Assembly: GCA_937883885.1 (NCBI GenBank)
Contig: CAKZXL010000443.1
Location: forward strand, 1-33,972
Direction of reading: 5' to 3'
DNA from: an uncultured Aquincola sp.
GTDB lineage: Bacteria > Pseudomonadota > Gammaproteobacteria > Burkholderiales > Burkholderiaceae
Length of the DNA stretch: 33,972 nt
Shown here: piece after piece, positions 1,341 through 30,616 of the stretch
Position numbering within the stretch: position 1 is the first letter of the stretch
How the letters are laid out: every line of letters starts with the position of its first letter
Notes under the pieces: model-generated
Seen by the model: only the letters and a program-made list of their open reading frames with translations
What the model was told of the DNA's origin: nothing
The model's database searches: none
Position numbers and translations under genes: made by a program

Positions 1341-1350
1341 CAGATAAGCA

Positions 1351-2280: not shown

Positions 2281-2283
2281 CCA

Positions 2284-2802: not shown

Positions 2803-2839
2803 CCAAACACCAGGCAGAGCCTGGGTCAGGGAGATTCAC

Positions 2840-3940
2840 GTGAGCCAACAGAAAAGCCAGGACAACGCAGCCAACATCGAGGCGAACTTCATCGTCGTGG
2901 GCATTGCTGTGGTGTTGTTCGCCGTCATCATGTGGCTGTTGCTCGGCAGGCACTTCTCCGCCTTCATGGGGGTGCTGCGCCGCTATGAGATGGCGTTGTT
3001 CGCGCCGTTCTTCGAAGGCGCGGCCGACCTCTGGAGGCGCCTGGTCGATCTCAACGGTGGGCCGCTCGAGTTCCGCGACACCTACGCCATGCTCACTCTG
3101 ACTGGCAACTACGTGCGCTGGCTGTATGTTCCGCCACTGTTGGCGATGGCCGTCGTCCTGTACATGAAGTCCTTCCGCGGGCGCTTCCGCAAGCGCCACT
3201 CCATGTCGTCCCTCGCCAAGCAGGAGGCCGCCTTGTGGCCTGAAATCGCACCGGTGGCGGGCAAGCAGGTTCAGATGGTCGAGGGCGATATCACGAAGGG
3301 GCCGTGGGCCGTGGCTGCGACAGAGTGGGAATTTGCGGAGAAGCACAAGCTGGCCAAGCGGGGCGGCAAGCTGAACCGTGACGGCTCGCGCGATGTCTTC
3401 GTCGCGCAGTTGGGGCCCCTGTGGGCTGGCCCGAAGGCTCTCCCGCTTCACGCCCGTGCCCTGCTGGCCGCCTTCGCGCTGCGCATCGCCGGCAAGAAGG
3501 ATGAGTCGCTGGCTGCCTTCCGCAAGATGTCCGCAACCTTCGAGGCCGGTGGCGGTGTCAAGGGCATGGACACGTCGTGGGTCGATGCGGCGATTGCCGA
3601 GCACGCGGACCACCCCAGCCTTTTGAAGGTGTACGAACGGCACGCCTACGTTTTCACGGTCATGGCCACTGTGCAGCAGATCGCACGCGCCGACGGCGTG
3701 CTGGCCAGCCCGCTGTACCTCTGGCTCAAGACGGTTGACCGTCGCCTCTGGTACACGCTCAACAACGTGGGTCGTTACGCCTTCACCGTCGAGTGCGCCG
3801 GGATCATGGCGCACTGGCTTTTCGAGAAGACGGTCGGGTCCGCTTGTCCGAGCCCTATGGTCGAGAAGGCCGTGGATGGCCTGGAGCAGGCCTTGACCGA
3901 ATTCAGCGAGGACGACTCGCTGGAGCGCCTGTACTCATAG
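2840..3940 (+). CDS. DotM/IcmP (TrbA)-family type IV coupling complex protein
   Basis: A 366-aa protein starting at GTG 2840, preceded by a GGGAG ribosome site. There are two predicted inner-membrane segments, at about residues 17-36 and 92-108, followed by a cytoplasmic domain. The C-terminal part carries the family signature ADGVLASPLYLWLK, VDRRLWYTLNNVGR and ECAGIMAHW. DotM and IncI TrbA bind the coupling ATPase DotL/TrbC in the inner membrane and help recruit substrates. Length matches the family (about 370-400 aa). The gene lies two genes upstream of the DotL-like ATPase, as trbA and trbC are arranged in IncI plasmids. I am confident of the family and less so of the substrate. Confidence 0.88.
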   Translation: MSQQKSQDNAANIEANFIVVGIAVVLFAVIMWLLLGRHFSAFMGVLRRYEMALFAPFFEGAADLWRRLVDLNGGPLEFRDTYAMLTLTGNYVRWLYVPPLLAMAVVLYMKSFRGRFRKRHSMSSLAKQEAALWPEIAPVAGKQVQMVEGDITKGPWAVAATEWEFAEKHKLAKRGGKLNRDGSRDVFVAQLGPLWAGPKALPLHARALLAAFALRIAGKKDESLAAFRKMSATFEAGGGVKGMDTSWVDAAIAEHADHPSLLKVYERHAYVFTVMATVQQIARADGVLASPLYLWLKTVDRRLWYTLNNVGRYAFTVECAGIMAHWLFEKTVGSACPSPMVEKAVDGLEQALTEFSEDDSLERLYS

Positions 3941-3997
3941 CGGGAGTGGCTGGCCGCGAGGCCTGCAAACTTGACGAAGCTTGAGCAACGGTGGATC

Positions 3998-4010
3998 GTA
4001 TATTCTGTAC
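3998..4010 (+). promoter_or_regulatory. Putative promoter element before the second half of the transfer operon
   Basis: GTATATTCTGTAC lies in an AT-rich island in otherwise GC-rich DNA, 27 nt before the start at 4038. It contains a plausible -10 (TATTCT, 4001-4006), but no good -35 at 17 bp. It resembles the AT-rich elements upstream of 852, 9525 and 22311. Confidence 0.4.
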
Positions 4011-4037
4011 ACCATGCCATGTTCGAGTGAGTCGCCA

Positions 4038-4679
4038 ATGAAAATCCAAGCCTCCCAACGTCCGGCTTACGCGGCCGGCTTCCCAGCGACGGACTCTGTC
4101 GTCGCCCGACGTCTGCGCGCCAATGGAGACGTCCTACGCCGCACCGGCGCCGTGGTCCTGTCGAACGGTACCAACGCGTTCACCGTGGACCTCGGTCAGT
4201 TCAAGAAGGTGTCGGTCGAGAGCGCCGAAGGGGGCGTCTTCAACATCACCGGGCGGAATTCGCTCGACCCGGACGCCCAGGGCGTAGTCCTGGCGAACTT
4301 CGGCAGCCAGAGAGCGGCGGACAACGGCTACGCCGCGCTGATGCGGGCTCACTCGGGGCTGCGCGCGTCCGGCGCCTCGAGCCGTGGCGTGCGGATGGTG
4401 AAGTGGGGCGGGGGTCTTGTCGCGCTGTTCTGCGCAGTGGTGGTTTTCAGCGCCGTGACAACGGGCATGCAGCAGTCGGCCGTGGCGGCGACCGCGCCGA
4501 CGATGGGCAACCCGCAGCTGCTGGCTCAACCGGCACAAGCGGCGCAGCAAGGCAAGGGCGGCTTCAACCCGAATGAGCCGACGCTCGAGGACCTCGCCTC
4601 CGGCAAGTATGAGTTCCAGCCTAACCTCAAAGCACCAGACATCGTTCCGCCGACGCTGAACTGCGCTCCGACGAAGTAA
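4038..4679 (+). CDS. Single-pass membrane protein between DotM- and DotL-like genes
   Basis: A 213-aa protein from ATG 4038 (MKIQASQRP), preceded by GAGTGAG. In-frame upstream codons back to 3981 overlap the promoter element and are less likely. Residues 1-115 form a cytoplasmic domain with beta-rich character (AVVLSNGTNAFTVDLG). A single hydrophobic segment at about 122-144 (GGGLVALFCAVVVFSAV) is followed by a Gln/Ala/Pro-rich probably periplasmic tail ending in NCAPTK. Its position corresponds to trbB of IncI plasmids, but it shows no thioredoxin or DsbC motif, so it is not a TrbB homologue by sequence. It is probably an accessory subunit of the coupling complex. Family not recognised. Confidence 0.7.
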   Translation: MKIQASQRPAYAAGFPATDSVVARRLRANGDVLRRTGAVVLSNGTNAFTVDLGQFKKVSVESAEGGVFNITGRNSLDPDAQGVVLANFGSQRAADNGYAALMRAHSGLRASGASSRGVRMVKWGGGLVALFCAVVVFSAVTTGMQQSAVAATAPTMGNPQLLAQPAQAAQQGKGGFNPNEPTLEDLASGKYEFQPNLKAPDIVPPTLNCAPTK

Positions 4680-4703
4680 AAACGTCCACGAAACACCCAC
4701 CCG

Positions 4704-7526
4704 ATGTCTTACGGCCTGAACACTCGCCTCGAGCGAACGAACTCGTCACTGCTCTACGACTCGCGGCGCTTTGGCGAACGTCTCAAGGACGCGATCGCAA
4801 GCGAAGAGGTCGTGACTCTCGTCATGGTGGGTTTCGCACTGGCGGTGTTCTTCGCGCGCCAGATGTCGGAGCTGCTTTTCCTGCTGGGGGTTTGCTTCTT
4901 CTTGTACGCGCGTGCGGTGCAGAGGGGCGCCGGGCTTGCGATGCGCCTGCCAAAGAGCTCCGGTGAGGTCGACCCGAAGGAAATCCATCCCGGCACGATG
5001 AAGCCCACGAAGGCCGGCGGGATCGTCTACATGGGCAACGATGCCGACACTGGCGAGGAGATCTGGCTGACCGACAACCAGGCGCGGACTCACATGCTCT
5101 TCATGGGGACCACTGGCTCGGGTAAGACCGAGTACCTGGTGTCCCTCGTCTACAACGCGCTCATCCACGGCTCCGGCCTCATCTACGTCGACGGCAAGGC
5201 GGACTCCTCGCTCTACGGCAAGGTGTACTCCATGGCTCGCTCCATGGGCCGCGATGACGACGTACTCGTCATCAACTTCCAGACCGGCGCGAAGGACATC
5301 TACGGCGCCCAGCCGAGCAAGCTCTCGAACACGCTGAACCCTTTCGCCGTCGGTTCGTCGGGCATGTTGAGCGAGCTGGTCAAGGGTCTGATGGCCACCG
5401 GTGAAAAAAGCACCTGGACGCAGCAGGCAGAGTCGTTCGTCGAAGCGCTGATGAAGCCGCTGGTATACCTGCGCGACCACCACGGCCTGAATCTTGACGT
5501 GAACGTGGTGCGGGCCTACTTCGAGCTCGACAAGCTCGAAGACCTTGCATGGCGCGACGCCGACAAGTATCCGGGGCTGCTCGAGTCAGGCGCACTGGAC
5601 GGCATGCACGCCTACTTGCTGAACAAGCCCGGGTACAAGAAGGAAAAGTACCACGACCAAAGCGAGACAACGCACGAGCAGCACGGCTACATCACCATGC
5701 AGCTGGGCCGCACGTTCAACTCGCTGTCGGACACCTACGGCTACATCATGAAGACGCCGCTGGCGGAAATCGACTTCGTCGACGTCTTCCTGAACCGCCG
5801 CATCCTGGTCGTGCTGCTGCCGGCGCTGGAGAAGTCACCCACAGAACTGACCAACCTCGGTCGCATCGTGGTTGCCTCCATCAAGGCAACGATGGCCAAG
5901 GGCCTGGGCTCGGCTATCGAGGGCGACTGGAAAAAGGTCATCGACTCGAAGCCCACGAACAGCCCGAGCCCGTTCATGTGTGTGCTCGATGAGTACGGCT
6001 ACTACGCGGTCGACGGCTTCGCTGTGGTACCCGCGCAGGCCCGTTCTCTTGGGTTCTCGGCCATCTTTGCGGGGCAGGACTTGCCTGCCTTCGAGAAAGC
6101 TTCGAAGGAAGAAGCAAAGTCGACGCTGGCCAACACGAACACGAAACTGTGCGGAAAGCTGGAGTGTGTCGACACGTTCAACTATTTCAAGAGCCTTGGC
6201 GGCCAGGGTCTGTACACGCGACTTGGCCGATACGAGACCGACCCTGGTGCGTTGGGTCCGACCAGCCACAAAGCCGACAACAACGTCAACGTCGAGCGCA
6301 TCGACCGTGTGGACCTCGAGTCGCTGCGCGGGCAGATCTCGGGTCAGTGGAACCTTTTCTACGGCAACACGATGCTTCGCGTGAAGTCGTTCTTCGCAGA
6401 CCCGAAGCCAGTTCGCCAACTGCGAGTGAATCACTTCCTCAAGGTCGCCCGGCCCGACCCCGAAGAGGTGGCGGCCTACCGCAAGTCCAGCGACACCTTC
6501 ACCCGTGCCGTGATGGCCGACGGCGGACTACGCTCCTTCATGGATGCCGTCGGTTCGCCGTCTGACATCAAGGACATCCACGATGGCTTCGAGCTGTTCA
6601 AGGGCCAGGAGCCGCTACTGGGCGCTGGCATGGTGCTGGCCTACTGCGCGCAAGCCGAGACGCGGCGTGCGAACGCGTTCACCAAGCTGACTGCCACGAG
6701 CTTTGACGGCGACGAAGGCTCAGAGCCTCCAATCGACTTCGCGGCGCAGATGGGCACGCACGTAGAAACGCCGGGGCCGGACGAGACCGTCTGGGGTAGC
6801 CAGGAGACGCCGCCTTGGGAGGGAGGCGATGCAACTCAGCAAGGCTCCGTACCCGACGCCGATGCTGACAACCGGCGCCTCTTCAACGACGCGTACGGCA
6901 GCGACGAGCCGGCTGGTGCTCCGTCAACTCTTCCGGACGGCATGCTTGACGGCGTGCCGGCAGACGTCGTCGAACGTGTCGATGGCGGCGACAACCACTT
7001 CCCATTCGCCGAGGACATCGGCGAGCTAGTTGCGACGAGTGACGTTTCGCTCGATGGCGACCTCTATGGCGATGGTTTCGATGCGCCCGCTGAGCCTGTT
7101 GAGCGTGTGCCGCTCATCAGCGGCGGCAGTGAGTATGCAGAGACGACTTCCGTCTTCGGCGTGGAGTCGGCAGACATGCCTGCAGCCGTGGCCATGGCCG
7201 ACAACGACGTCGATGTCGACGCTGCGGACCGCCCGACGGACGTTGAAGCGCTCGGGGACGAGTTTTCGGGTTTCGACCTGCCGGACGCGGACGATGGCTT
7301 GCTCAGTCGGGAGGCTACGGTGTCTGGTCTTGCCGCCATTGAGCGAGCAGCAGGCGCCTCCGACGAAGAGGCTCGGATGACCGCATCCATCGTGGCAGAG
7401 GACCTGGGCGATGCGACTCGCTACCCCATCTCGGCGCCCTCCAAAGCCCCCGACCTCCAAGAGCTGAAGGAACTCGGGCAGCGCGTCTCGACGCTGCTGG
7501 GCTTCGCGGTCGACAGCGAGGATTGA
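4704..7526 (+). CDS. DotL/IcmO/TrbC-type type IV coupling ATPase
   Basis: A 940-aa protein. Two N-terminal membrane segments (about 36-50 and 54-70) are followed by a VirD4/FtsK-like motor domain with Walker A GTTGSGKT at 135-142 and Walker B FMCVLDEYGYY at 424-434. The domain also contains LIYVDGKAD and SLGFSAIFAGQDLPAFEKA. These are hallmarks of the DotL branch of T4SS coupling proteins, which feed DNA or protein substrates to the I-type channel. Residues from about 690 onward form a long acidic, Asp/Glu/Pro-rich, probably disordered tail ending in a predicted helix (KAPDLQELKELGQRVSTLL). The C-terminal tail of Legionella DotL binds adaptors, so this one may recruit element-specific partners (inference). 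It starts 24 nt after the preceding gene. Confidence 0.9.
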   Translation: MSYGLNTRLERTNSSLLYDSRRFGERLKDAIASEEVVTLVMVGFALAVFFARQMSELLFLLGVCFFLYARAVQRGAGLAMRLPKSSGEVDPKEIHPGTMKPTKAGGIVYMGNDADTGEEIWLTDNQARTHMLFMGTTGSGKTEYLVSLVYNALIHGSGLIYVDGKADSSLYGKVYSMARSMGRDDDVLVINFQTGAKDIYGAQPSKLSNTLNPFAVGSSGMLSELVKGLMATGEKSTWTQQAESFVEALMKPLVYLRDHHGLNLDVNVVRAYFELDKLEDLAWRDADKYPGLLESGALDGMHAYLLNKPGYKKEKYHDQSETTHEQHGYITMQLGRTFNSLSDTYGYIMKTPLAEIDFVDVFLNRRILVVLLPALEKSPTELTNLGRIVVASIKATMAKGLGSAIEGDWKKVIDSKPTNSPSPFMCVLDEYGYYAVDGFAVVPAQARSLGFSAIFAGQDLPAFEKASKEEAKSTLANTNTKLCGKLECVDTFNYFKSLGGQGLYTRLGRYETDPGALGPTSHKADNNVNVERIDRVDLESLRGQISGQWNLFYGNTMLRVKSFFADPKPVRQLRVNHFLKVARPDPEEVAAYRKSSDTFTRAVMADGGLRSFMDAVGSPSDIKDIHDGFELFKGQEPLLGAGMVLAYCAQAETRRANAFTKLTATSFDGDEGSEPPIDFAAQMGTHVETPGPDETVWGSQETPPWEGGDATQQGSVPDADADNRRLFNDAYGSDEPAGAPSTLPDGMLDGVPADVVERVDGGDNHFPFAEDIGELVATSDVSLDGDLYGDGFDAPAEPVERVPLISGGSEYAETTSVFGVESADMPAAVAMADNDVDVDAADRPTDVEALGDEFSGFDLPDADDGLLSREATVSGLAAIERAAGASDEEARMTASIVAEDLGDATRYPISAPSKAPDLQELKELGQRVSTLLGFAVDSED

Positions 7527-7530
7527 GCGC

Positions 7531-8259
7531 ATGGGCTTAGATGTGTTGCAGCGGCTGGATCGCCGCGGTTTCCTCGCTGCTGCCGCAGCCGCGGTCGCAG
7601 CAAGCACTGGTCCAGCCTTCGGCCAGACGCTGATTCAGGACACCCCGAGCTCAGACGTCGGCTTCACCCGAGGGGACGTGCGGTCAGACGCCTACGCTGT
7701 TCGTGCGCAGCCGGCGCAACTAGTTTCAGCGGTGCAGCCGCAGCTGTCGGTGACCACCGAGCCGCTGGACTGGCGCAAACACCTCATTGCGGGCGAGCGC
7801 TCCATCCTGATGCGTCGTGACGGCGCGGCGCAGCGCGTGCGCTACTGCACGGCCGATGGGCAGCTCGACCGAGAAGGCTACGCAATTGCCTGCACGCTGC
7901 TGAGGGACGTGCGGGCTGGCAAGCTGTATCCGATCGACCCGCGGCTGCTGGATATCCTGTGTGGACTGCAACGGTGGGCCGAGTACAACGGCCGCAGTGC
8001 GGTCATCCAGCTGCTGTCAGGCTTCCGGACGCTGGCGACCAACAACGCCCTAGAGGGCGCGGCGATGAATTCGATGCACTTGTACGGCCGCGCGGCGGAC
8101 ATTGTCTTCGAGGGAATTCCGAGCGGCCTGCTCGGCGCCATGGTCCGCTCGTTCAATGACAAGGGCGGCACAGGCATCTACCTGAATCGGGGTTTCGTCC
8201 ACGTCGATACTGGCGCAGCGAGGAGCTGGGTCTCGACAGCTCGCTCGCGGCGGCGCTGA
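7531..8259 (+). CDS. Tat-exported M15/DUF882 (YcbK-like) peptidoglycan peptidase
   Basis: A 242-aa protein. A twin-arginine leader (RRGFLAAAAAAVAA, residues 11-24) leads to an Ala-rich hydrophobic stretch and a possible cleavage site near AFGQ. The C-terminal domain has the M15/DUF882 pattern: SGFRT at 163-167, SMHLYGRAADI at 181-191 (metal ligands His183 and Asp190), and GFVHVDTG at 221-228 (His224). Such zinc enzymes cleave peptide cross-links in murein in the periplasm. It starts 4 nt after the DotL stop with GAGGATTGAG as ribosome site, so it is the second cell-wall enzyme in this transfer operon. It complements the transglycosylase at 2284. Confidence 0.88.
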   Translation: MGLDVLQRLDRRGFLAAAAAAVAASTGPAFGQTLIQDTPSSDVGFTRGDVRSDAYAVRAQPAQLVSAVQPQLSVTTEPLDWRKHLIAGERSILMRRDGAAQRVRYCTADGQLDREGYAIACTLLRDVRAGKLYPIDPRLLDILCGLQRWAEYNGRSAVIQLLSGFRTLATNNALEGAAMNSMHLYGRAADIVFEGIPSGLLGAMVRSFNDKGGTGIYLNRGFVHVDTGAARSWVSTARSRRR

Positions 8260-8574
8260 TGTCACTGCGCTATCGCGTCGTAGAGAAAAAGTTCAACCAA
8301 GGCCGCACGAACCTCGTTCCCGAGGGTGGCGTTTGGCACCCCAAGCTCGAGATGCTCGAACGGCTGCCCAGCGCATCGCTCCGACCACCCTGGCTCACCG
8401 CCTCTTCATCGTGAACAGCGTAGGGACCAGGGGTCCCTGGTGCACGAAGAGGTTGAGTTGGCTCCGCTTGAGCAGCGCCTGGCCCACCTGCATCAGTCCA
8501 TCTTGGCGGTGCGCAACCCGAGTTGCTTGGTCGCAGAACGAGCCGTGCTGCCCGGCCTACCCGATTGGCGGTAG
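8259..8574 (+). pseudogene. Small gene overlapping the peptidase stop, probably frameshifted
   Basis: The peptidase stop overlaps an ATG (TGATG at 8257-8261). From there a 51-aa frame runs to 8414 (MSLRYRVVEKKFNQG at the start, PEGGVWHPKLEMLERLPSA inside). After about 8390 the protein-like composition moves to other frames: LAHRLFIVNSVGTRG in one and LVHEEVELAPLEQRLAHLHQ in a third, ending at 8574. I read this as one coding sequence broken by two small indels. The first 51 codons could also be a genuine small gene. Function unknown. Confidence 0.4.
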
Positions 8575-8626
8575 CGAATGCAGAACCGGACCCTGAGTCC
8601 GACACGCCTGACGCCAGCCCGCCATT

Positions 8627-8650
8627 GAAAAAGCCGCCTTGAGGCGGCTT
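8627..8650 (-). terminator. Intrinsic terminator of the 8736-9308 gene
   Basis: An 8-bp perfect stem (AAGCCGCC / GGCGGCTT) with a TTGA loop at 8631-8650 is flanked by an A-run at 8628-8632 on the plus strand. On the minus strand it therefore reads as a GC hairpin followed by a U-tract, terminating transcripts arriving from 9308-8736. Confidence 0.75.
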
Positions 8651-8681
8651 GATTCGGGTATATCTGTTTCGCTTGGTGCAA

Positions 8682-8703
8682 CACTACATGCTGAGGTGTA
8701 GTG
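8682..8703. repeat. Short inverted repeat
   Basis: CACTACA (8682-8688) and TGTAGTG (8697-8703) form a perfect 7-bp inverted repeat with an 8-bp spacer. It lies between the terminator and the 3' end of the minus-strand regulator gene. It could be an operator or an RNA hairpin in the 3' UTR. Function unknown. Confidence 0.45.
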
Positions 8704-8735
8704 CATATCCAAGGAAAGAAGATGCTGCCGTTTGG

Positions 8736-9308
8736 TCAAGCCGTGGCTTGCTCAACCTTCTTCGCTGCAGCGCGTTTGCGCGGGGGACGCTTGGGCTTGG
8801 GATTCCACGCGCCGGTCTTGAAGATGTCATCGACACCACGCGCCTGGGCTTCCAGCTTCACTGTCTCGCGCCAGTTCTCCAGCATCTCGCCGCGCTTGTC
8901 CGGGCTCGCTGCCAGGATGGCCATCTTCATGTAGAACATAAGGCGACCGACAGCCGGAGTCATGCGGGAGCCGGGCTTGAGCCAACGGTAGGTGGCGGAA
9001 GCCTCGGAGCCAAACAGCGCCGAAAAGCGCTTCTGGTCGACCGGCTGCACCTTGTTGAGCAGGGCGTACATCTCTTCAGCGCTGGGAAACTTCGGTATGA
9101 CAGACAGCTCGGGATGGTCTGCCAGGAAACGCACCAGCAGCGCGAGCGTCGGGTCTTTCAGGGGCACTTCCGGGTTCTGGCGTACGACTTGCATCCATTT
9201 CGTGATGGACATGCCGAACAGCCAGCACGCGTCGGCGACGAGCATGCCGAACTGCTGGGCAATCGAGTCCAGGTCCTTGCCGAGGACGGGCCGGTTGGTC
9301 GGAATCAT
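8736..9308 (-). CDS. Putative HTH-type regulator, plasmid accessory protein
   Basis: A 190-aa protein from ATG 9308 (MIPTNRPVLGK), with GAAGGA 6 nt upstream. An earlier in-frame start at 9362 lacks this support. Two segments look like helix-turn-helix units of the Xre type: residues about 14-65 (FGMLVADACWLFGMSITKW then DPTLALLVRFLADHP) and about 90-125 (FSALFGSEASATYRWLK then MTPAVGRLMFYM). The last 20 residues are very basic (PKRPPRKRAAAKK), typical of nonspecific DNA contact. It is divergent from the 9525 gene across an AT-rich promoter region and ends at the terminator 8627-8650. I infer a DNA-binding regulator of this element, possibly autoregulated. No exact family name is claimed. Confidence 0.7.
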   Translation of the reverse strand: MIPTNRPVLGKDLDSIAQQFGMLVADACWLFGMSITKWMQVVRQNPEVPLKDPTLALLVRFLADHPELSVIPKFPSAEEMYALLNKVQPVDQKRFSALFGSEASATYRWLKPGSRMTPAVGRLMFYMKMAILAASPDKRGEMLENWRETVKLEAQARGVDDIFKTGAWNPKPKRPPRKRAAAKKVEQATA

Positions 9309-9369
9309 CGTAGGTCCTTCTTCTCCCCTGTTCTTGGGGGCACCACTGCTCAGCGGTGCCACGTTCCGC

Positions 9370-9397
9370 TTTACAAATGGTGTATGTGATATACAAT
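9370..9397 (+). promoter_or_regulatory. Divergent promoter region with shared GTATGnGATATAC motif
   Basis: TTTACA (9370-9375) and TACAAT (9392-9397) with a 16-bp spacer make a plausible plus-strand promoter for the 9525 gene, with a leader of about 120 nt. It overlaps GTATGTGATATAC (9382-9394), which matches 12 of 13 bases of 791-803. The divergent HTH gene starts 62 bp away on the other strand. Confidence 0.5.
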
Positions 9398-9457
9398 CGG
9401 TGCATCGAAGGTCTTAGGTTAGACTGCCGATTCACCCGTGGCGATGGTGCAAATGAT

Positions 9458-9477
9458 ATGCGAAACGCTGTTCGCAT
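9458..9477. promoter_or_regulatory. Perfect inverted repeat in the 5' leader of the 9525 gene
   Basis: ATGCGAA (9458-9464) and TTCGCAT (9471-9477) with a 6-bp spacer form a perfect 7-bp inverted repeat about 48 nt upstream of the start at 9525. It could be an operator for the divergent HTH protein, or an mRNA hairpin in the long leader. Confidence 0.45.
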
Positions 9478-9524
9478 GCAACTGCCTCGGCCAGTAGAAG
9501 TAATATCTTATTTTGAGGTTTCCT

Positions 9525-10334
9525 ATGAACGAAGTCGACGCGACGTCGGTCCGGGCCGAAGAGCGCCACGACAGCGGCGCTGGTGACGCAAGGGCAAAGG
9601 CTCCTGCCAAGGTGGCTCTGACTTCGTTCGTGGTCTATCGCGTCAACGGTCGTGCGGGTGATCCGGCGGCAACGGTTGATGTTCTCGCCGGCGGCGAAGC
9701 TGCGCGGTTCACGCCCGAAGGCAAGTTGCAGCTGCTCGCCTCGAGCGCGCCGTTCCACTCGGACGCCTTCAAGGGGCGCGCGCCGAAGCCTGGGCACGGT
9801 CTGCTCGCGTTGTACGGTCACCGCGACGCGCTCGAGGAGTTGCAGTATTGGCGCGCCCGGGCCCGCGAAATGAAGGCCGAGTTTGCTTACTGCAACTTCG
9901 ACGTTCAGGTCGACCGCATCATCGAGGTGCTCGTGGATCGCAAGCGTTTGCGCGATAACCACGAGGCGAAGTTCCTGAACCTGCGTCGGACGATGTCGGG
10001 CCTGCAGTCGGAAATCTTCGAGCGCTTCGCTGGCTACGTTGCCTCCGAAGGCGGCACGAACACGGCGATGACCGCGGTCTCGCACATCGCGACCAGGCCG
10101 GACCTGTTCGACCGCTTCTTCGAGGACGACAAGGACTTCAAGCACCTTTCGGTGTTTGTCATTCCCGTGGCTGACGACAGCGACGTCCCGGGAAAGATGC
10201 GCCAGATGGCCTACGTACGTCCGGGCGCGAAGGTCCTGAACATCGTGCAAGGTAGCGACCAGGTCGACGTTCTTCTTCCGGCTTGGGTGACCGACGAGAA
10301 GGCGGCCAAGAAGCTTCGCGCGCAGCAAGGCTGA
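9525..10334 (+). CDS. Hypothetical protein, 269 aa
   Basis: Start ATG 9525 (MNEVDATSVR) is preceded by TTGAGG. The upstream TTG at 9513 is less likely. The first 30 residues are charged and Ala-rich and may be disordered. After that comes a mixed alpha/beta domain (TSFVVYRVNG, GLLALYGHRDALEELQYWRARAREMKAE), a helical middle with ERFAGYVASEG, and a C-terminal beta region (LSVFVIPVADDSD, KVLNIVQGSDQVDVLLPAWV). No signal peptide or membrane segment is visible. It is a monocistronic unit or is co-transcribed weakly with the HNH gene, because an intrinsic terminator follows at 10358. No family recognised. The dedicated regulator-like divergent gene suggests a controlled plasmid function. Confidence 0.7.
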   Translation: MNEVDATSVRAEERHDSGAGDARAKAPAKVALTSFVVYRVNGRAGDPAATVDVLAGGEAARFTPEGKLQLLASSAPFHSDAFKGRAPKPGHGLLALYGHRDALEELQYWRARAREMKAEFAYCNFDVQVDRIIEVLVDRKRLRDNHEAKFLNLRRTMSGLQSEIFERFAGYVASEGGTNTAMTAVSHIATRPDLFDRFFEDDKDFKHLSVFVIPVADDSDVPGKMRQMAYVRPGAKVLNIVQGSDQVDVLLPAWVTDEKAAKKLRAQQG

Positions 10335-12784: not shown

Positions 12785-12968
12785 ATGAGTCAGCGACAAG
12801 AACTCATCCGTCTGCATGGGCCTGTGAAAGTGGCCTCCTCCGAGATCGAGTGCTGGAAGTGCCACCGCCAGACGCCCGGTCCACGCGCTGTTGGCGTCCG
12901 ACGGCGAAGAGTCCGAGCCCGGCGAGGAGCCTATGAGGCTCGAGGGGCTGCCGCATCACGCGCTCTGA
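12785..12968 (+). pseudogene. Small zinc-ribbon-like protein, broken by a 1-nt insertion
   Basis: ATG 12785 begins MSQRQELIRLHG and reaches a CxxC knuckle (ECWKCHRQTP). Near 12881-12884 an extra G shifts the frame. Removing it continues the protein as VHALLASDGEESEPGEEP, ending LPHHAL at the TGA at 12966-12968. The repaired product is about 60 aa with one visible CxxC, probably binding zinc. It starts 8 nt after the nuclease stop. It may be a true frameshifted gene or a sequencing error. Confidence 0.5.
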
Positions 12969-13061
12969 GTAGCGAGCCGCCGATGCCGACCACCGCCTGA
13001 CATCCCGCGCGGTGAAGATGCACCGGCCGGCCACGCGCCGCGCCGCCGGCACACCTCAGGC

Positions 13062-13476
13062 ATGCATCCGCTCCATCACATCTCCTTCCGCGTGGCTGAC
13101 CTGGCGCAAGCCGACCGTTCCTACGACACCGCCCCAGGCCGCGCTGCACCTGCGTCGAGTGTTCGAAGACGACGAAGCCATCGGCTACGGATTCACCGAT
13201 GGCGAAGACCTGTTGTGCCTGAAGCTGCGAGCGGCGCCACCGCGCCGGGCCCGGGCTTCCTCTCTGGTTTTCGGCGCAGGCACCCGAGCGGCGGTGCACC
13301 CCGTCCATGCCGCCGCGCTGGCCCATGGCGGCCGCAGCCCGGCGGCCCTGCGCCCCGCCTGTGGCGAGCACCCCGCCGCCTTCGTGATCGACCCGGCCGG
13401 CCACACCGTCGAGGCGGTGTGGAAGCCTGCGCCCCCTCCCGGAGAGATAGCTTGCAGCGCGAGCGTGCCCCAGTGA
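13062..13476 (+). pseudogene. Frameshifted VOC (glyoxalase/bleomycin-resistance) family gene
   Basis: ATG 13062 gives MHPLHHISFRVADLAQADR, the classic N-terminal beta-alpha element of VOC proteins with the metal-ligand His. Near 13138 the frame changes, and the family sequence continues as LHLRRVFEDDEAIGYGFTDG. The next frame gives FGAGTRAAV, then FVIDPAGHTVEAVWK, the conserved C-terminal strand. A further compensating shift around 13240-13270 is likely. VOC proteins are metal-dependent dioxygenases, isomerases or resistance proteins of about 120-140 aa, so all of the gene is here but not in one frame. It is clearly a decayed chromosomal-type gene. Confidence 0.8.
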
Positions 13477-13989
13477 GCGCCGCCGCCCGGCCCAAGCTGG
13501 GACTGGCACGGCAGGTCGCCACCTGCGCCCTCTCCTGCGTCGCCGCGCTGGCCGTCATGGCATGGCGGCACCCGATCGACCTGCTGGCCGATGCACGCGC
13601 CGGCTTGCTTATGCACTGCAGGGCGCGCTGCTGCTAGCCGTCACCTTGGCGGCATGGCTGGTGGCCCGCCGGGGTGGCCAGCGGCGCGGCGCCGGCTAGA
13701 GATGCCGCCGGCGCTGCGGTAGCTCGACTTCTCGGGCACGCGGCCGCTCCAGATCGCCCTCTGCGCGGGCGTTGGCGAGGAAATGCTGTTCCGCGCCGCA
13801 CCGTTGCCCGCCCTGGGCCTCCCAGTTCCGTCGTCCCTGTTTGCGATTGCGCATGCCCGCACTGCGCTGCTGGCGCCTTCACACCACGCGCGCTGGTCAT
13901 TCACCCTGCAAACACCCGTGGCGGGCCAGTGCCTGGCCTGGTGGTCCAGCACCCGAGGTTGCTGCGGGCCATCGGCCAGCATGTGCTGA
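13473..13989 (+). pseudogene. Decayed CPBP-type intramembrane metalloprotease gene
   Basis: A GTG at 13473, overlapping the end of the VOC remnant, starts a frame reading LGLARQVATCALSCVAALAVM, a first membrane segment. This frame stops at 13637. A second hydrophobic piece (LLLAVTLAAWLVARRGG) follows in another frame near 13625. The diagnostic motif GVGEEMLFRAA, with the Glu-Glu pair of CPBP/Rce1-like proteases, appears at about 13768-13800, followed by SSLFAIAHART carrying the conserved His. The pieces are in order but in different frames with internal stops, and the C-terminus is lost. It was probably co-transferred with the VOC gene. Confidence 0.7.
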
Positions 13990-14039
13990 GCGGACCGGCC
14001 TGGCGAGCTAGAGGCTGAGGACCGGGCAAGGATGCCGTA

Positions 14040-14170
14040 CTAGCCGACGAGGTACTCGTCAGCTGCTTCCAGGTAGCCATGCGTGACCATCTTGCCGGCG
14101 GCGTCGGCCACCCGTTCGCGCACCACCTCGTGGGCTCAGTCGTCGCCCACGGCGCCTATGGCGATGCCTG
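14040..14170 (-). pseudogene. Minus-strand gene remnant
   Basis: Reading the minus strand, a coherent helical C-terminus ends at a TAG at 14040-14042: AHEVVRERVADAAGKMVTH then GYLEAADEYLVG. It is preceded in the same frame by IAIGAVGDD and an in-frame TGA near 14132. The composition is protein-like, but the internal stop and lack of a start make it a remnant. Family unknown. Confidence 0.35.
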
Positions 14171-14700
14171 CCGATCGCAGGCACGGTCGTTCGCGTGCTC
14201 AACGCCATCCGGCAAGCCGAAGCGTCCCGGCGCCCAGATCCCACCAGCTATTGGCCTCGGCTGAGCCTCGGCCGGTGGGCGCGGGCAGCGATGTTCAACC
14301 CACGGAGAGACAACCTAGTTCCGCAACTCCGCCTACGACCGAATCAGGGCAGCGATCTTCCTGGGCATGCTGGGGCGCTCAGCAAGCTAGGCGGAAAACG
14401 CACTGTTCACTACGACCGGTCGAACGCGGCGGGCCGGTACGTGGCAACAGCCCGGTCTTCCTGCAGCGGCCATCTCCAAGGGCCCGCGAGCTGCTCACGC
14501 CCACTGTGGTGCTCCAGAGCACAAGACCTGTGGAGCGGCTCATGAGACAAGACGTGCCGCGCTGGTGGCTTACATCTGCACGATGAAGCAGCACTTGCCC
14601 CCACTCGAACGGCTGTGTAGTCCGGCCGAGCTGCTGCCGCGGACTGCGTGAGGCCCAAATCCAGTCTGCGGTGCGGAAAAAGAGGCAATCCGCAAAACAA
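14171..14700. other. Non-coding stretch, nothing recognised
   Basis: Open frames here are short, Arg/Ser/Pro-rich and mutually inconsistent. No ribosome site plus start combination, RNA gene, insertion-sequence end or clear repeat was found. It looks like decayed DNA between the broken genes and the repeat locus that begins near 14716. Confidence 0.4.
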
Positions 14701-14750
14701 GGTCGGGGGGATTTGACAACAAGCGGGGAATGTTGTTGCCTATTTTCAGT

Positions 14751-14810
14751 TCAATTCGCAGATTTTTACGACGACCCCCCGGGGGGTCGTCGACTTTTTC
14801 TGCGATTTGA
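14751..14810 (+). repeat. 60-bp palindromic site, copy A
   Basis: An outer 12-bp inverted repeat (TCAATTCGCAGA / TCTGCGATTTGA, one mismatch) encloses two T-tracts in the same orientation and a 24-bp perfect palindrome, CGACGACCCCCC with its complement GGGGGGTCGTCG (14770-14793). Fifty-five of 60 bases match the minus strand of 27408-27467. The flanks, including the asymmetric T-tracts, are conserved while the core stem is not, which argues for a protein-binding site rather than only a terminator hairpin. Just upstream, ACAACA (14716-14721) and TGTTGT (14731-14736) form another small inverted repeat. Confidence 0.8.
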
Positions 14811-14866
14811 GGAGTAGGGCGGGCGCCATAGAACACAACGTACGAAAAGTGGCAAGTCAGCAGTGA

Positions 14867-15026
14867 GTTGAGGTCTATGTAAACATCAGTTGATGTCCAA
14901 ATGAACACCACTTGATGTTCACTTGATGCTCAACTCCAGAACTGCAGGCCGTCTGGGCGAGTTGATGCTCAGTTGAGCATCAAGTGAGCATCAACCGAGC
15001 ACCAGGTGATGCCTACTTGCGCACCA
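14867..15026. repeat. Two blocks of six tandem 11-bp iterons
   Basis: Block 1 (14867-14932) and block 2 (14961-15026) each hold six contiguous 11-bp units, separated by 28 bp. Typical units are GTTGATGCTCA, CTTGATGTTCA, GTTGAGCATCA and AGTGAGCATCA. The shared core is TGA-N3-TCA preceded by T, itself a half-palindrome, so units read similarly on both strands. A period of 11 bp places sites on one helix face. A related block of six lies at 30551-30616. The layout resembles ParR-type parC centromeres, for example R1, which has two groups of 11-bp repeats. It could also be a replication or operator iteron array. Confidence 0.8.
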
Positions 15027-15830
15027 ACTCGGCGTCGAAATCGGCGTGCCACCGCCCCGGCCCGGCTAAGGGGCTCGCACGAACAGGCTCACAGCGGGAG
15101 ATTGGCCCGCAGGAGGCTCCAAAAAAGCATCCAAAAGGGCCCGGATCGAGGTGCGCGTGGTTGGTTCTGGCCGGCCGTGCGCTGTGGCCGTCGGCGTAGA
15201 GGTAACGCGCACGACTTGACAGGGACGTGTCCTAGTAACGTGCACACAGGTCAAAAAGAGAGGAGAAAGATAGGTGCGGAACCGTGTCCTTAATCCGATT
15301 CCGAGCCAGGCTGAGGGGGCACCTGCAAGCCACGCCAGAGGCGTCAGAGCGCGCGGAGGCTCGGTGCTCCGTCGGAGGCTCTGCAGAGAGCTCCTTGCCG
15401 ACTCGTGAGCACCCGATGTGTTGATGTCGCGGCTTCCACGGTGGCTGACGTTCTGCGGGCCATTCGGTCTCGATGCGCTCTCAGATTCGGATCATTCAAC
15501 CGATGCGTCGCTCGCTCGGGTGTTGAGATTGAGGGGTTGGAGCAGGGTGTTCCATCCCGCTCATGTGTGGATGGGGGCCGGCGGCCTTGAAGCGAGGGCG
15601 ACGATGGGTAGGGGTGTTGACGAGATGTCGATGCGGGAATCCCATGTAACAAACGGTTAGCATGCTGATACGCTGTCTTTGCCACATCAGGAGACGGGCG
15701 TCTGGAGCTCCCGACTCGTGTGCTTGTCTTCCAGCAACGTTAGTGCTCACTGACGCACTTCGTTTTCTAACAATCGAGTTGGGCCCGATGGGGTCGCAGG
15801 GCTGAAAGTGCCCAAGGAACGAGGTGGGGG
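15027..15830. other. Non-coding stretch downstream of the iterons
   Basis: No convincing gene. One 44-codon frame starts at GTG 15274 behind a strong ribosome-site-like GAGGAG (15259-15264) and ends at 15408, but its product is not recognisable. Other open frames are Arg/Ser-rich shadows. A TTGACA hexamer at 15216-15221 lacks a properly spaced -10. Just before the 15831 gene, TTGGGC/GCCCAA pairs around 15780-15812 could form a weak hairpin. Confidence 0.35.
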
Positions 15831-17063: not shown

Positions 17064-20000
17064 GTGCGCGGCGACCGCGGCCCTGATCGATGCGGTGCGC
17101 CGCCATCCGGCGAATGGTGGGCCGCGTTTCTTTGCGAAGCTAACATTCCCGAGCGGGCTGCAAGGGCAAGAAGCTCGTCGAGCGACCAGGAGCGGGCATT
17201 GGAAGCGCTGGCAGAACTACTGAATCCCTTGGAACAGGTGTGGAAGAACTACCAAGGGGCGCTCGCGTTCGTCGGCACCGTCGCAGCGGTCGTAACGCTC
17301 TTCGCGAATCCGCTAGGTCGGCTCACCGTCCGAGCGGTCGGCTGGTTCCGGCGGGCCGAATCTCCCCAACCGACACTGAGCGACCCGCCGATGGGCGATG
17401 CGGGTCTCGCTCGCTACAGTCGGCGCGCCGTCGCCTTGCTTGGCCGGGACGCCGAGCTGTCACGCCTCCTCGGGTTCCTGCAATGCAGGCGTGACTTTGC
17501 CTGGATGCAGATCGCCGGCGCCGGGGGCCATGGCAAGAGCCGGCTCGGCTATGAGTTGATGCTGTGGGCCAGGGATAACGGCTGGCGTGCCGGCCTTGTC
17601 GAGGCCGCCGACATGGAGGCATTCAAGGGCCACTGGCCGGCGTGGCAGCCGCGTCGGCCGCACCTGCTGGTGTTGGACTACGTGGTCGGTCGTGAGCCGA
17701 GCATCAAGGCGGCCATGCAGGCGCTTGCCGCGCGCGCAGGAAGCTTGCGTAATCCTGTTCGCATCTTGTTGCTCGAGCGGCAGCGCTGGGATCGAGGCGG
17801 ACTCGGCGCTCTTGGCAGCATGGGCCTTGCCGGCGCAAGCGTTGCACACAATGGGCGAGCCGAGTGGTTTCTGGCCTTGGCTGAACGCGTCGACGGCAAC
17901 GACCCAAGGCTGGAGGCTACGCGCTTCGAGGACGGCGTGCTGGAGCTGGGCCGTCTGGATGAGGTTGACCTCGTAACCATCGTCCGCGGCGTCGGTGCAG
18001 CCGAGGGTGCCGAGGTTGCGCTGTCGGACGCCGTAATCGCCGAGCGGCTGAGGCAGATCGACAGCTCCGGCCGCCCGTTATACGCCTACTTCTTCGGCCA
18101 AGCGCTGGCGGCCGGCAGTTCGGTGGGGTCGGGTTGGAAGCGCGAAGAACTTCTCGACGCCACGCTCGATCGTGACCAGGGCTCGCGCTGGCGCGCTGCG
18201 CTCGGCGATGCGGCGCCTAGTCTTGGCGACGGCAGCGTGGCCGAACGCCTGGCCGTGATCGCAACCATTGCAGGCGGTTTGGACTGCGGCGCCGCAGAGC
18301 GCAGCGGCCTGATCCCGCATGCCGACGCGCGGGCGCGGCGGCGCGCGCTGATCCTCACCGATGCCGGCGTGGGGAACGCAGGGGGCGGCCCGTCGCGGTT
18401 CATACCCGCCCTGCAGCCCGATCTGCTGGGCGAATGGTTCGTGCTGCGGACGGTGCGCTACGGGCTTGCGCTCGACCAAGTGTTGGGCCTGGCGTGGCGG
18501 TTGAGCGCCGACTCAACCGCGGCCTTCTTGAACAGGTTGGCGCAGGACTTCCCAGGGGACACAGTGGCTGGTGAGATCCTGAACTTCCGCCCGCCCGATG
18601 CCGCAGCTGCGGCAGCGCTCGCTAAGGTGGCAGCGAGCATCGATCGCAGCCTTCGTCGCGCGGCGTGCCCTTTGCCGACGACCGTCGTCGACGCGTTGAC
18701 CGACGCGGCGCACCGCGGAGATGCCCGCTCGATGGCCAGTCTTGGTCTTCTTTGCTCGCTAGGCCGCGGTGTCTCGCGCGACGTCGAGCAGGCGCTGGAG
18801 TGGTGGCGTAAGGGGGCCGAGGCGGGCGACGGCAGAGCGATGGCGAATCTGGCGGTCTGCTACCGACTTGGCAATGGCGTCGATCGCAACCTGGCTCAGG
18901 CGCTGGCTTGGTGCCGTAAGGGGGTCGAGGCGGGTGACGGCAGGGCGATGGCCACCCTTCTTTTTCTACGAACGGGGCGAGGGCGTCGAGCGCGACCTGG
19001 GTCAGGCCCTGGCTTGGTACCGCAAGGCGGCCGAGGCGGGCGACGGCGCAGCGATGGTCAGCGTGGGGGTTTGCTACCAAAATGGCAGGGGCGTCGAACG
19101 CGACCTGGGTCAGGCCCTGGCTTGGTTCCGCAAGGGGGCCGAGGCGGGCGACGGCAGTGCGATGACCTGCCTTGGCGTCTGCTACCAGCTTGGCGAGGGC
19201 ATCGAGCGCGACTTGGCTCAGGCGCTGGCTTGGTACTGCAAGGGGGCCGAGGCGGGCGACGGCAGTGCGATGAACAGGTTGGGCATCTGCTGCGAACGGG
19301 GCGAGGGCGTCGAGCGCGACGTGGGTCGGGCGCTGGCCTGGTACCGCAAGGCGGCCGAGGCGGGCGACCGGAGAGCGATGGGCAACTTGGCCGACTCCTA
19401 CCGACTTGGTAAGGGCGTCGAGCGAGACCTCGGTCAGGCGCTGGCCTGGTACTGCAAGGCGGCCGAGGCGGGCGACGGCGAGGCGATGACCAACCTCGGG
19501 GTCCTGTACCAACGGGGCAAGGGCGTCGAGCGCGACCTGGGTCAGGCGCTGATTTGGTACCGTAAGGGGGTCGAGGCGGGCAACGGCAGGGCGATGACCA
19601 ACCTGGGCTTCTGCTACGAACGTGGCGATGGCGTCGAGCGCGACCTGGGTCAGGCGCTGGGCTGGTACCGCAAGGGGGCCGAGGCGGGCGACGGCGGAGC
19701 GATGGCCAACCTGGGGCTCTGCTACCAACTTGGCCAGGGCGTCGAGCGTAACCTGGGTCAGGCGCTAAATTGGTACCGCGAGGGGGCAGAGGCGGGCGAC
19801 GGCGGAGCAATGGCCAACCTGGGCGTCTGCTACCAACTTGGTCAGGGCGTCGAAAGCGACCTGGGTCAGGCGCTGCATTGGTACCGTGCGGGGGCACAGG
19901 TGGGCGACGGCTTAGCGATGGCCAACTTGGGGGTCTGCTACCAACTTGGCGAGGGCGTCGAGCGCGACCTAAGTCAGGCTCTGTCTTGGTACCGTGAGGG

Positions 20001-20244
20001 GGCCAAGTTGGGCAACGGCAGGGCGATGGCCAAACTCGGCCACTGCTACGAACAGGGCGTGGGCATCGAGCGCGACCTGAGTCAGGCGCTGGCTTGGTAC
20101 CGCGAGGGGGCGGATGCGGGCGACAATATTTCGGCGGAAGGCGTAGGTCGACTGCTTGCGGTGTACCCGCATCTAGATCCGGCTGCCGGGACCAGCAAAT
20201 CTGCGGTCGTCACCTTTGCTCAAGGTCCAGCCGATCTGCACTGA
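17064..20244 (+). pseudogene. P-loop (STAND-like) NTPase with 13 Sel1 repeats, frameshifted
   Basis: The first frame opens at GTG 17064 (start uncertain; in-frame ATG only at 17391). A hydrophobic segment lies at 17256-17350 (YQGALAFVGTVAAVVTLF). A P-loop GAGGHGKSRL is at about 17514-17545, Walker B-like HLLVLDYV at about 17662, and then a helical NTPase-associated region. C-terminal Sel1/TPR-like repeats begin at 18717. A GG deletion between 18959 and 18960 shifts the frame. As sequenced, the first frame runs on in shadow sequence to 19412, while the true repeats continue in the next frame to the stop at 20244. Repaired, the protein is about 1,060 aa. STAND NTPases with repeat sensors often act in stress signalling or phage defence. 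That role here is inference. The break may be real or a sequencing error. Confidence 0.75.
18717..20118 (+). repeat. 13 tandem 108-bp units encoding Sel1-like repeats
   Basis: Each unit encodes 36 aa of the pattern GDGxAMxNLGxCYxxGxGVERDLGQALxWYRKGAEA (x variable), a Sel1-like helical hairpin. Thirteen units should occupy 1404 bp; the tract is 1402 bp, exactly accounting for a 2-nt deletion in unit 3. Nucleotide similarity between units is high enough that shadow frames stay open through the tract, implying recent duplication or gene conversion. A degenerate 14th unit starts at 20119. Confidence 0.9.
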
Positions 20245-20733: not shown

Positions 20734-22311
20734 CTACACCGCCGCCCTCGCCCGGCGCCGTGCCGCACTGGCTTCGGCGCCGTTGGCGGCCGGCGCCGCG
20801 AGCTTCGCTTCGGACGATACCCTGTTGATGACCGAGATCATGGTCCGCTCGGTGCCGAACACCTCAGCGGCGCTAACCCAGGCGTCCGTGAACGGCCGCC
20901 GCTCCTGAGTAGCTGATGTCTTCAGGCGCTCAACAGTGGCGATCACCGCCTCGTCGGTACCACCGAGACCGCCCAGCTCATCAACCGCCTTCAGGAATGC
21001 GACAGCACAGGTCGCATCAGCGCGCGGCATGTTTCCATCAGGGCGCAGCTCGCCAACGCAGGCCTCGAGCAGGAACTCACCGGCCTCGCTAGTGGACCCG
21101 CAGAAGCCGACGTAGGCGAGGCCCAAGGCCAGGTTTCGGACGTTGTGGGCGAGCTCAGTGGGAGCCAGGGAGTCCTGTCGTCCGAGGAACAGGCGCCTCT
21201 GGGCGCTCCTGACCAGTGACTGGCCGATGGCGCTTTCGACCGGCACCGGGCCGAAGAGGTGGTCGTGCCGATTCCTGATGTCCAGCAGGAATGCAGTGTC
21301 CGGCGCGTACGCGCGCATCGGGTCCGGAAGCGTCCCCTGCATCGCAGCCACATGCACCAGCCCGGAGGCTGCAGCAATGGAGGTGGCCAGCATGGCGTCC
21401 AGCTGCGCAAGAAGGTGCTCCTCACCGTCCACCGAAGCCCAGAAGGGCCTGACGGGGCCGTCCGCAGGCGAGCCGGCAAGCTCGTCCAGCTCCATCACCG
21501 ACGCCAGAAACTCAACCCGGGGTCCCGTGATGCCCAGCATCGAGCGGACGAGGGACTCCTTGCCCATCTTCACCTGCCGGTCACGGGCGGTCTTTCCTGC
21601 TTGGTCGGCGCGCACCCGGTGGGCAGCCCGGCCGAACATCAGGCGTACGCAGGGGTGCTTCGCGAAAGCGGTCAGCTGCGCCATCAGCTCTTGGTCGACG
21701 CCAGAAGCCTTGTCCTGCTCTCGGCTGCGGAAGTGAGAGTAGCGCGGCAGCGCGCCGTGAGCAGTCTGCGACAGGGCGCTGCCCAGGGAGACGTACTCGC
21801 GCTCGCCACTGCGAATGACTGGCACCAGCAGGGCCGGGTGCATCAGCACCGGGTACTTCAGCATGATGGAGCTCAGGTGCCGGCGGGTGGCGGCTGCGAG
21901 CTCGGGCATGAGGGACACCTGGCTGGTTCCCAGCACCCGCACGCACAGCACTACCTGCTCGGCGACCGAGACTGGCGGGCGGTTGCCCTCCTGGATGCAG
22001 CTCGCTGCGGTCTTGTCTCGCAGCATCTCGCAGTCCCCGTACATCCCGTTGTAGTGCGGGCCACACCCGCTGAGCGCTGGGTAGAGGGTGCTCGGTTGCG
22101 ACGAAAGCACCGATGAGTCGTTGCAGGCCAGGATGTGGCCGGGAAGGGGCTCAACGCTCTGCCAGGAGTCAAACACCAGGTCGTCTGTGCGGATGACACT
22201 TTGCTCAAATAGCAGCTGCAGTGGGACGAGCGCCTGAATAGCCGTGCGACCCGCCTTCAGTTCATCTGCAACGAGGCGGTTCATCCCTTCTAGCTCTGCG
22301 TCGGTCATCAT
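20734..22311 (-). CDS. Uncharacterised element protein, paralogue 1
   Basis: A 525-aa protein read from ATG 22311 (MMTDAELEGMNRLV), which lies at the predicted transcription start of a promoter at 22318-22346. ATG 22308 or 22284 are alternatives. No known domain, signal peptide or membrane segment was recognised. It shares several collinear blocks with the 26104-27408 product: SVAEQVVLCVRVLG against SIADRLTVYLYVLN, KYPVLMHPALLVPV against EHPVLLHPRVRVRV, FAKHPCVRL against FADLPMVRS, and TELAHNVRNLALGLAYVGF against DEVAYNLQAVVTAMVRVGV. The N-terminal third is unique and Cys-containing (LACNDSS, SGCGPHYNGMYGDCE). The tail is basic and Ala-rich. It is probably cytoplasmic. Function unknown. Confidence 0.75.
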   Translation of the reverse strand: MMTDAELEGMNRLVADELKAGRTAIQALVPLQLLFEQSVIRTDDLVFDSWQSVEPLPGHILACNDSSVLSSQPSTLYPALSGCGPHYNGMYGDCEMLRDKTAASCIQEGNRPPVSVAEQVVLCVRVLGTSQVSLMPELAAATRRHLSSIMLKYPVLMHPALLVPVIRSGEREYVSLGSALSQTAHGALPRYSHFRSREQDKASGVDQELMAQLTAFAKHPCVRLMFGRAAHRVRADQAGKTARDRQVKMGKESLVRSMLGITGPRVEFLASVMELDELAGSPADGPVRPFWASVDGEEHLLAQLDAMLATSIAAASGLVHVAAMQGTLPDPMRAYAPDTAFLLDIRNRHDHLFGPVPVESAIGQSLVRSAQRRLFLGRQDSLAPTELAHNVRNLALGLAYVGFCGSTSEAGEFLLEACVGELRPDGNMPRADATCAVAFLKAVDELGGLGGTDEAVIATVERLKTSATQERRPFTDAWVSAAEVFGTERTMISVINRVSSEAKLAAPAANGAEASAARRRARAAV

Positions 22312-22317
22312 GTATAG

Positions 22318-22346
22318 AACATATACGATACACATCTATAGTTCAA
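22318..22346 (-). promoter_or_regulatory. Promoter of paralogue 1, predicted leaderless
   Basis: On the minus strand, TTGAAC (22346-22341) and TATGTT (22323-22318) have a 17-bp spacer. The start point would fall about 7 nt after the -10, on the A of ATG 22311. No Shine-Dalgarno sequence is present. The region is strikingly AT-rich with several GTAT/ATAC words, as in the other element promoters. Confidence 0.55.
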
Positions 22347-27408: not shown

Positions 27409-27467
27409 CAAATCGCAGAAAAAGTCGACTACCCCCCGGGCACTCGTCGTAAAAATCTGCGATTTGA
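27408..27467 (-). repeat. 60-bp palindromic site, copy B
   Basis: Inverted relative to copy A at 14751-14810, with 55 of 60 bases identical. Here the outer 12-bp inverted repeat (TCAAATCGCAGA / TCTGCGATTTGA) is perfect, while the inner core has changed (GTGCCCGGGGGGTA), breaking the core stem. Its end is the first base of the start codon of paralogue 2, so it occupies the promoter/leader position. Confidence 0.8.
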
Positions 27468-30499: not shown

Positions 30500-30550
30500 G
30501 GATCACCTCGAACGGGACGGTGGGCGGCTGAGCGCGCCGCTTGCACTTCG

Positions 30551-30616
30551 ATTGAACATCACGTGAGCATCAACTGGCGATCACATGAGCATCAGCTGAG
30601 CATCAAGAGATGTTCA
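30551..30616. repeat. Third block of six 11-bp iterons
   Basis: Six contiguous 11-bp units: ATTGAACATCA, CGTGAGCATCA, ACTGGCGATCA, CATGAGCATCA, GCTGAGCATCA and AGAGATGTTCA. They share the TGA-N3-TCA core and phase of the arrays at 14867-15026. The block lies upstream of the GNAT gene and about 1 kb after the RHH operon. Confidence 0.8.

Follow-up and report, generated by a model that had tools for sequence, protein, structure and literature searches.

A 33,972-nt stretch of DNA from an uncultured Aquincola sp. (contig CAKZXL010000443.1; hereafter the window) carries three arrays of an 11-bp unit, each six units long and strictly phased. Two of them lie side by side past a Dot/Icm-type coupling cluster, and a third lies some distance away. 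At the counterpart locus of plasmid RPME01 of Methylibium petroleiphilum PM1 there is also a phased 11-bp array, a 26-27-bp motif recurs there and on plasmid pACP3.1 of Acidovorax carolinensis, and the units show similarity to the stbDR repeats of plasmids R388 and R46. By analogy with such systems, we lean slightly toward the view that the locus is a cis-acting nucleoprotein assembly site, similar to those of StbA or ParR, with roles in plasmid maintenance and control of transfer.

Three phased arrays and their surroundings

14751-14810: long inverted repeat with an A/T-flanked GC hairpin at 14769-14792; DNA fold of -21.3 kcal/mol, z -6.4
14869-14934: block A, six 11-bp units with the core TGA-N3-TCA, read as TGATGCTCA or its reverse complement
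14935-14962: spacer between blocks A and B, 28 bp
14963-15028: block B, six 11-bp units
30553-30618: block C, the third six-unit array
29537-30499, minus strand: GNAT-like ORF; PF13508 at E 1.1e-4, below the family cut-off

The unit cores of block A start at positions 14869, 14880, 14891, 14902, 14913, and 14924, and those of block B at 14963, 14974, 14985, 14996, 15007, and 15018, in strict 11-bp phase and with TGATGCTCA present in both orientations. Degenerate units make up 7 of the 12; the unit at 14869 agrees with the core at five of nine letters, and those at 14880, 14891, 14902, 14996, 15007, and 15018 agree at seven of nine each. When six phased units were scored against the six fixed letters of TGANNNTCA (maximum score, 36), block C reached 34, block A 31, and block B 30. 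The next-best place in the window scored 20, the top score among 300 dinucleotide-preserving shuffles was 23, and alternative periods of 8 to 14 gave scores of 21 or less. The three arrays are far above chance expectation, and their 11-bp phase is certain. Unit positions and the shuffle control confirmed the first-pass annotation in its description of two six-unit arrays with a TGA-N3-TCA core, set 28 bp apart; its count was incomplete, as block C is present in the same window. With all 18 units oriented alike, the consensus was T G A T G C/T T C A. G2 and G5 did not vary, T1 and A9 varied once each, and T4 varied twice.

The locus had been described as non-coding, and this description appears to hold: an Rfam scan gave no match and the stretch contains no supported gene. 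Absence of an Rfam match was also the ground on which a structured RNA was ruled out. Two mechanical ORFs overlap the outer ends of the arrays (14570-14911, minus strand; 15006-15293, plus strand). Block A sits in a trough of GC content (0.48-0.52 at 14650-14949 vs. 0.63-0.78 at 12850-14649), and the bin of block B, at 0.63, is outside it. The inverted repeat at 14751-14810 is perhaps a bidirectional terminator. Four long palindromes of similar form (A-rich, GC, T-rich) were seen on pACP3.1 in a 4-kb stretch free of annotated genes (segment L011, 29000-31280). Elsewhere in the window, an apparent remnant of a glyoxalase-type (VOC) gene, split across two frames as judged by eye, occupies 13012-13637, and a long Sel1-repeat gene with 12.4 copies of a 108-bp tandem repeat is split over two overlapping frames at 17064-20244.

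Block C lies upstream of the GNAT-like minus-strand ORF, 53 bp from its start codon, and the ORF is a possible target of regulation through the block. Such a position would also be expected if the arrays were simply a multi-site operator, bound by a plasmid-wide transcriptional repressor and without any part in maintenance, and StbA of R388 is itself described as a repressor of several promoters (PMC3937220). This reading is made unlikely by blocks A and B, where a simple scan of 14600-15400 found no sigma-70-type promoter, the first long ORF past the arrays starts only at 15831, about 800 bp off, and a promoter would not need as many as twelve sites, set in two blocks within a long stretch that lacks supported genes.

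Counterpart loci on related plasmids

2840-3940, plus strand: DotM/IcmP-type coupling complex protein; PF23127, E 4.6e-53
4704-7526, plus strand: DotL/TrbC-type coupling ATPase, named by similarity to the annotated neighborhood; 64% to PM1 along its full length
8736-9308, minus strand: conserved protein with HTH-like helices; 68-70% identical in PM1 and Acidovorax
9513-10334, plus strand: conserved protein whose gene closes the syntenic cluster, ahead of the array locus; 47% in PM1 and Acidovorax
15216-15241, plus strand: motif TTGACA-N6-TGTC-N3-GTAACGT, common to the PM1 and Acidovorax loci
RPME01 (segment L005), 30535-30578, 30595-30660, and 30676-30741: blocks of four, six, and six units

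The window ORFs at 852-10334 make up a coupling cluster of the Dot/Icm type. RPME01 and pACP3.1 have the same gene order, and pACP3.1 also carries annotated DotA, DotG, DotH, DotI, and IcmT genes. In PLSDB, RPME01 is typed as MPF_F and both plasmids as MOBP. A megablast search with window positions 1-25000 matched a single plasmid, that of PM1, and a DotL search found matches in 13 of 398 Pseudomonadota genomes. Judging from these relatives, the window is probably part of a conjugative megaplasmid or of an element derived from one. Plasmid pACP4.1, whose annotated neighborhood is nearly the same as that of pACP3.1, was not counted separately.

Past the same coupling cluster, RPME01 has 4 + 6 + 6 eleven-bp units (TGTTGCC/TGATGCC), all in one orientation and with spacers of 15-16 bp between blocks. 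A two-unit pattern had 13 matches in the whole 599 kb of RPME01, seven within the array cluster and six scattered, the latter with two mismatches each; the reversed control pattern had four matches. The corresponding place on pACP3.1 holds six repeats of 31-32 bp, and the 11-bp unit is not kept. In genome G896, which has the two conserved neighbor genes (40-43%), neither a comparable array nor the motif was found in the 20 kb inspected. In a small sample of two or three independent loci, the repeat locus retains its form on one related plasmid and its position on two. Two window proteins for which no Pfam family was found (20734-22335 and, on the minus strand, 26104-27411) have a match in a single pACP3.1 protein (29% over 574 aa for the first, 34% over 98 aa for the second), whose gene is likewise downstream of the repeats.

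One full copy of the motif is present at each of the three loci, 26-27 bp long, with spacings of N6 and N3 in the window and Acidovorax and of N7 and N3 in PM1. It lies downstream of the array or repeats by 187 bp in the window, 166 bp in PM1, and 316 bp in pACP3.1. A looser pattern (N6-8, N2-5) yielded four matches, of which two represent a single pACP3.1 site covered by overlapping loci, and thus none beyond the three loci, in 1.4 Mb with both strands counted; this total excludes the short search loci, pACP4.1 (L012), the PM1-like pieces L049 and L050, and the PM1 pieces L028, L029, L047, and L048, which are in part not covered otherwise. In the PM1 spacing and with up to three mismatches, no other copy was found in the whole of PM1 and none in pACP3.1, whose own copy is spaced differently and so lies outside that search; viral contigs had none in the PM1 spacing. 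A shorter, related copy occurs in PM1 at L005 30872. The array regions of the window and PM1 have 11 nine-letter words in common, and two of the shared words, GGGGGGTCG and GAAAAGTGG, precede the array and follow each other in the same order in both, which is weak evidence.

Searched by blastn against 72,556 plasmids, the array locus and motif region gave no match, and a 20-mer contig scan found two sites, one in a Shinella contig and one in a Rhizobium contig. A 16S probe matched 0 of 40 genomes. As far as titles and the opening parts of abstracts tell, none of the literature found on the PM1 plasmid is about these repeats.

The motif is a candidate nic region or operator. If it contained nic, and if the arrays 166-316 bp away bound an accessory relaxosome protein, the locus would be part of an oriT. 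The arrays do adjoin the transfer coupling cluster, the motif has GACA...TGTC arms at all three loci, and the stbDRs of R388 are located in the region adjoining oriT (PMC3098194). We nevertheless give this explanation little credence, since PM1 and pACP3.1, despite their MOBP typing, gave no match to the Pfam relaxase PF03432, and the three motif stretches, folded alone, were no more stable than their shuffles. Replication iterons are a still poorer fit: phased repeats, with block A in an AT-richer stretch, would suit an oriV, but the rep genes are 34-38 kb from the array locus in PM1 and about 14 kb from it in pACP3.1, no rep gene was found among 20 scanned window ORFs, and pACP3.1 has other repeats between its AAA ATPase gene and rep. 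On the rep-gene distances in the relatives, oriV iterons were rejected as highly improbable.

Comparison with stbDR and parC

The stbDRs of R388 are 9-bp repeats with 2-bp spacing, arranged in two sets of five, with two to three further copies in other promoters; they mediate the role of StbA in plasmid stability and transfer, and the authors proposed that the StbA-stbDR complex pairs plasmid molecules with the nucleoid (PMC3098194). The window shares with these repeats, and with those upstream of stbA in R46, an 11-bp period (9 + 2) and the half-core TGATG(C/T), as well as repeats in sets, an additional copy elsewhere (at promoters, in the case of stbDR), and association with transfer genes. 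In a spacing test, the period of 11 and the two sets were found in the window, with six units per set rather than five and with a third block. The stbDR core (TTGCATCAT or TGATGCA) agrees with that of the window in its left half and differs in its right half. Units of R388, R46, and PM1 all point one way, whereas those of the window are mixed and have a near-palindromic core. An stbA gene adjoins the stbDRs, and the window has no adjacent or detectable stbA. R388 and R46 are MPF_T plasmids, in contrast to the Dot/Icm-type cluster of the window.

An stbDR model was built from 23 units of R388 and R46 and contained no window letters, although its nine columns were framed with the window core in view. 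Among phased places in the window it ranked block B first (31.2), followed by A (30.8) and C (23.9); the next place scored 0.2, and the maximum of 200 shuffles was 11.0. Both six-unit blocks of RPME01 ranked first in their segment (L005; 8.7 and 7.0; shuffle maximum 5.7), and the 31-32-bp repeats of pACP3.1 were not matched. In 504 kb of 21 other loci the highest score was 15.2, at a locus (L004) that had itself been retrieved by an array pattern, and the next was 9.4. An 11-bp array of TGAACATCATT-like units at 5871-5925 of a 72.9-kb IMG/VR contig (L003), between two ORFs, scored 36.3; having been found by an array pattern, it offers no independent support.

Because phase alone benefits any phased array, the columns of the model were permuted. 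Of 5000 permuted models, 0.8% reached the observed score for blocks A and B, 1.3% for C, and 4.5% for PM1. The corresponding values were 0.7, 9.8, and 4.0% for a model from R388 only, and 1.8, 4.6, and 51% for one from R46 only, which did not rank the PM1 blocks first with orientation free. These results leave the phase certain and make the likeness of the window core to stbDRs, given an array, modest and suggestive. In the reverse test, a weak one in which a window model was run on R388, R46, and PM1, the array places were the best same-strand matches; with orientation free, array-less places in pACP3.1 reached 16.7, above R388 (2.2), R46 (10.8), and PM1 (13.0).

A 37-sequence StbA model found no homolog in the window, in part of PM1, or in pACP3.1 (best E 2.9), and a search of the whole of PM1 and pACP3.1 gave no candidates while recovering StbA in the R388 and R46 controls. 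Since StbA is poorly conserved, its absence is a weak negative.

The first-pass annotation had likened the arrays to a parC-type centromere. A protein-docking maintenance array does appear to be the best class for them, and a phased 11-bp array stands at the corresponding place in PM1. The model nearest to the arrays is, however, not parC. Like the window, parC of R1 (ParMRC) has 11-bp repeats in two groups; its repeat sequence is unlike that of the window, where orientation is mixed and no parM or parR adjoins. A model of R1 parC, made from iterons 1 and 2 as given by an oligonucleotide in PMC4949242, missed the arrays and scored best in the window at 14683, although a two-unit model is weak. 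The claim that the window has no par or rep gene is supported, though not proven: no Par or Rep family was detected by Pfam among 20 window ORFs, scanned out of 27 chosen from the 161 ORFs of at least 80 aa.

The arrays could still serve as a centromere in trans, used by a ParM and a ribbon-helix-helix (RHH) ParR encoded elsewhere on the plasmid. Besides the layout of the repeats, this idea draws on ParM (PF06406) of pACP3.1, which is followed by a small protein that is RHH-like by eye, with no repeat array noticed beside the pair on reading by eye, and on the ParM that PM1 likewise carries. The pACP3.1 pair (181158-182515; L033 31158-32515) lies within a T4BSS gene cluster. Distances make the idea improbable, as parC is usually found upstream of parM (PMC9426499), and the array of PM1 at 38.4-38.6 kb is 66 kb from parM (104,853-105,866), while the repeats of pACP3.1 at 232.5 kb are 50 kb from parM (181-182 kb). 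Moreover, short direct repeats were seen by eye upstream of parM in PM1 (L038 6868-7300) and are possibly its own parC, and both relatives already have a ParB gene beside an AAA ATPase gene. A parC adjoining parM-parR was rejected on the gene distances and on the lack of a par gene among the 20 scanned window ORFs.

Of the systems compared, the stbDR array of R388 and R46 thus appears to be the closest parallel, closer than ParR/parC. The arrays were assigned to neither family, as the defining features, an adjacent gene and a single orientation, were tested and not found; they would work like a docking site of the stbDR/parC class without being a member of either. In Gram-positive plasmids, short units in either orientation serve as both centromere and operators in the Omega/parS system. 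Its heptad arrays differ from the window in having 7-bp units and other hosts.

A proposed site of maintenance and transfer control

We propose that the site belongs to a conjugative megaplasmid or to a derivative of one, equipped with a transfer system of the Dot/Icm type (T4BSS), and that a plasmid-encoded DNA-binding protein would occupy every 11-bp unit. Since the unit length is close to one turn of the helix, six occupied units would align on one face of the DNA. Occupied in this way, A and B would form two cooperating nucleoprotein blocks, with a smaller complex at C. By analogy with StbA-stbDR of R388, and more loosely with ParR-parC, the A/B complex may ensure vegetative inheritance and hold back or gate transfer, and through block C the same protein may act as repressor of a promoter at another place on the plasmid.

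As a guess, the conserved protein at 8736-9308 is a candidate for the array binder. Its structure model is mostly helical (mean pLDDT 86) and weakly resembles HTH domains in HigA2 and MqsA (the best E value was 0.15, and no match reached 0.001). Taken as 8736-9362, the protein has 101 homologs. Searches with this version confirmed none in viral contigs and gave one weak match in 399 genomes of one order. Among 399 genomes of one family, five matched: one taken as PM1 itself, one with a 19.5-kb stretch 99.995% identical to PM1 and hence not independent, one at 42% without an array, and two distant ones at 28-29%. The protein that the first-pass annotation had named for binding assays (27678-28343, plus strand) has an N-terminus that is ribbon-helix-helix-like by eye; no Pfam family was found for it, nor any relative among the PM1 and Acidovorax ORFs compared.

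More speculatively, Burkholderiales megaplasmids of the T4BSS type might possess a maintenance-and-transfer locus of their own, in which six-unit arrays of 11 bp and the 26-27-bp motif, with a binder unrelated to StbA and ParR (e.g., the 8736-9308 protein), act as a motorless centromere combined with a plasmid-wide repressor. No description of such a Burkholderiales locus was found in the literature searched. The inheritance of plasmids that lack a dedicated motor, and the switch between vertical and horizontal transmission, are known mainly from R388. The array provides a short DNA fragment with which a binding protein can be sought directly, and if a second lineage has a similar array but lacks a detectable stbA, docking arrays phased at 11 bp would seem to be a solution of general use.
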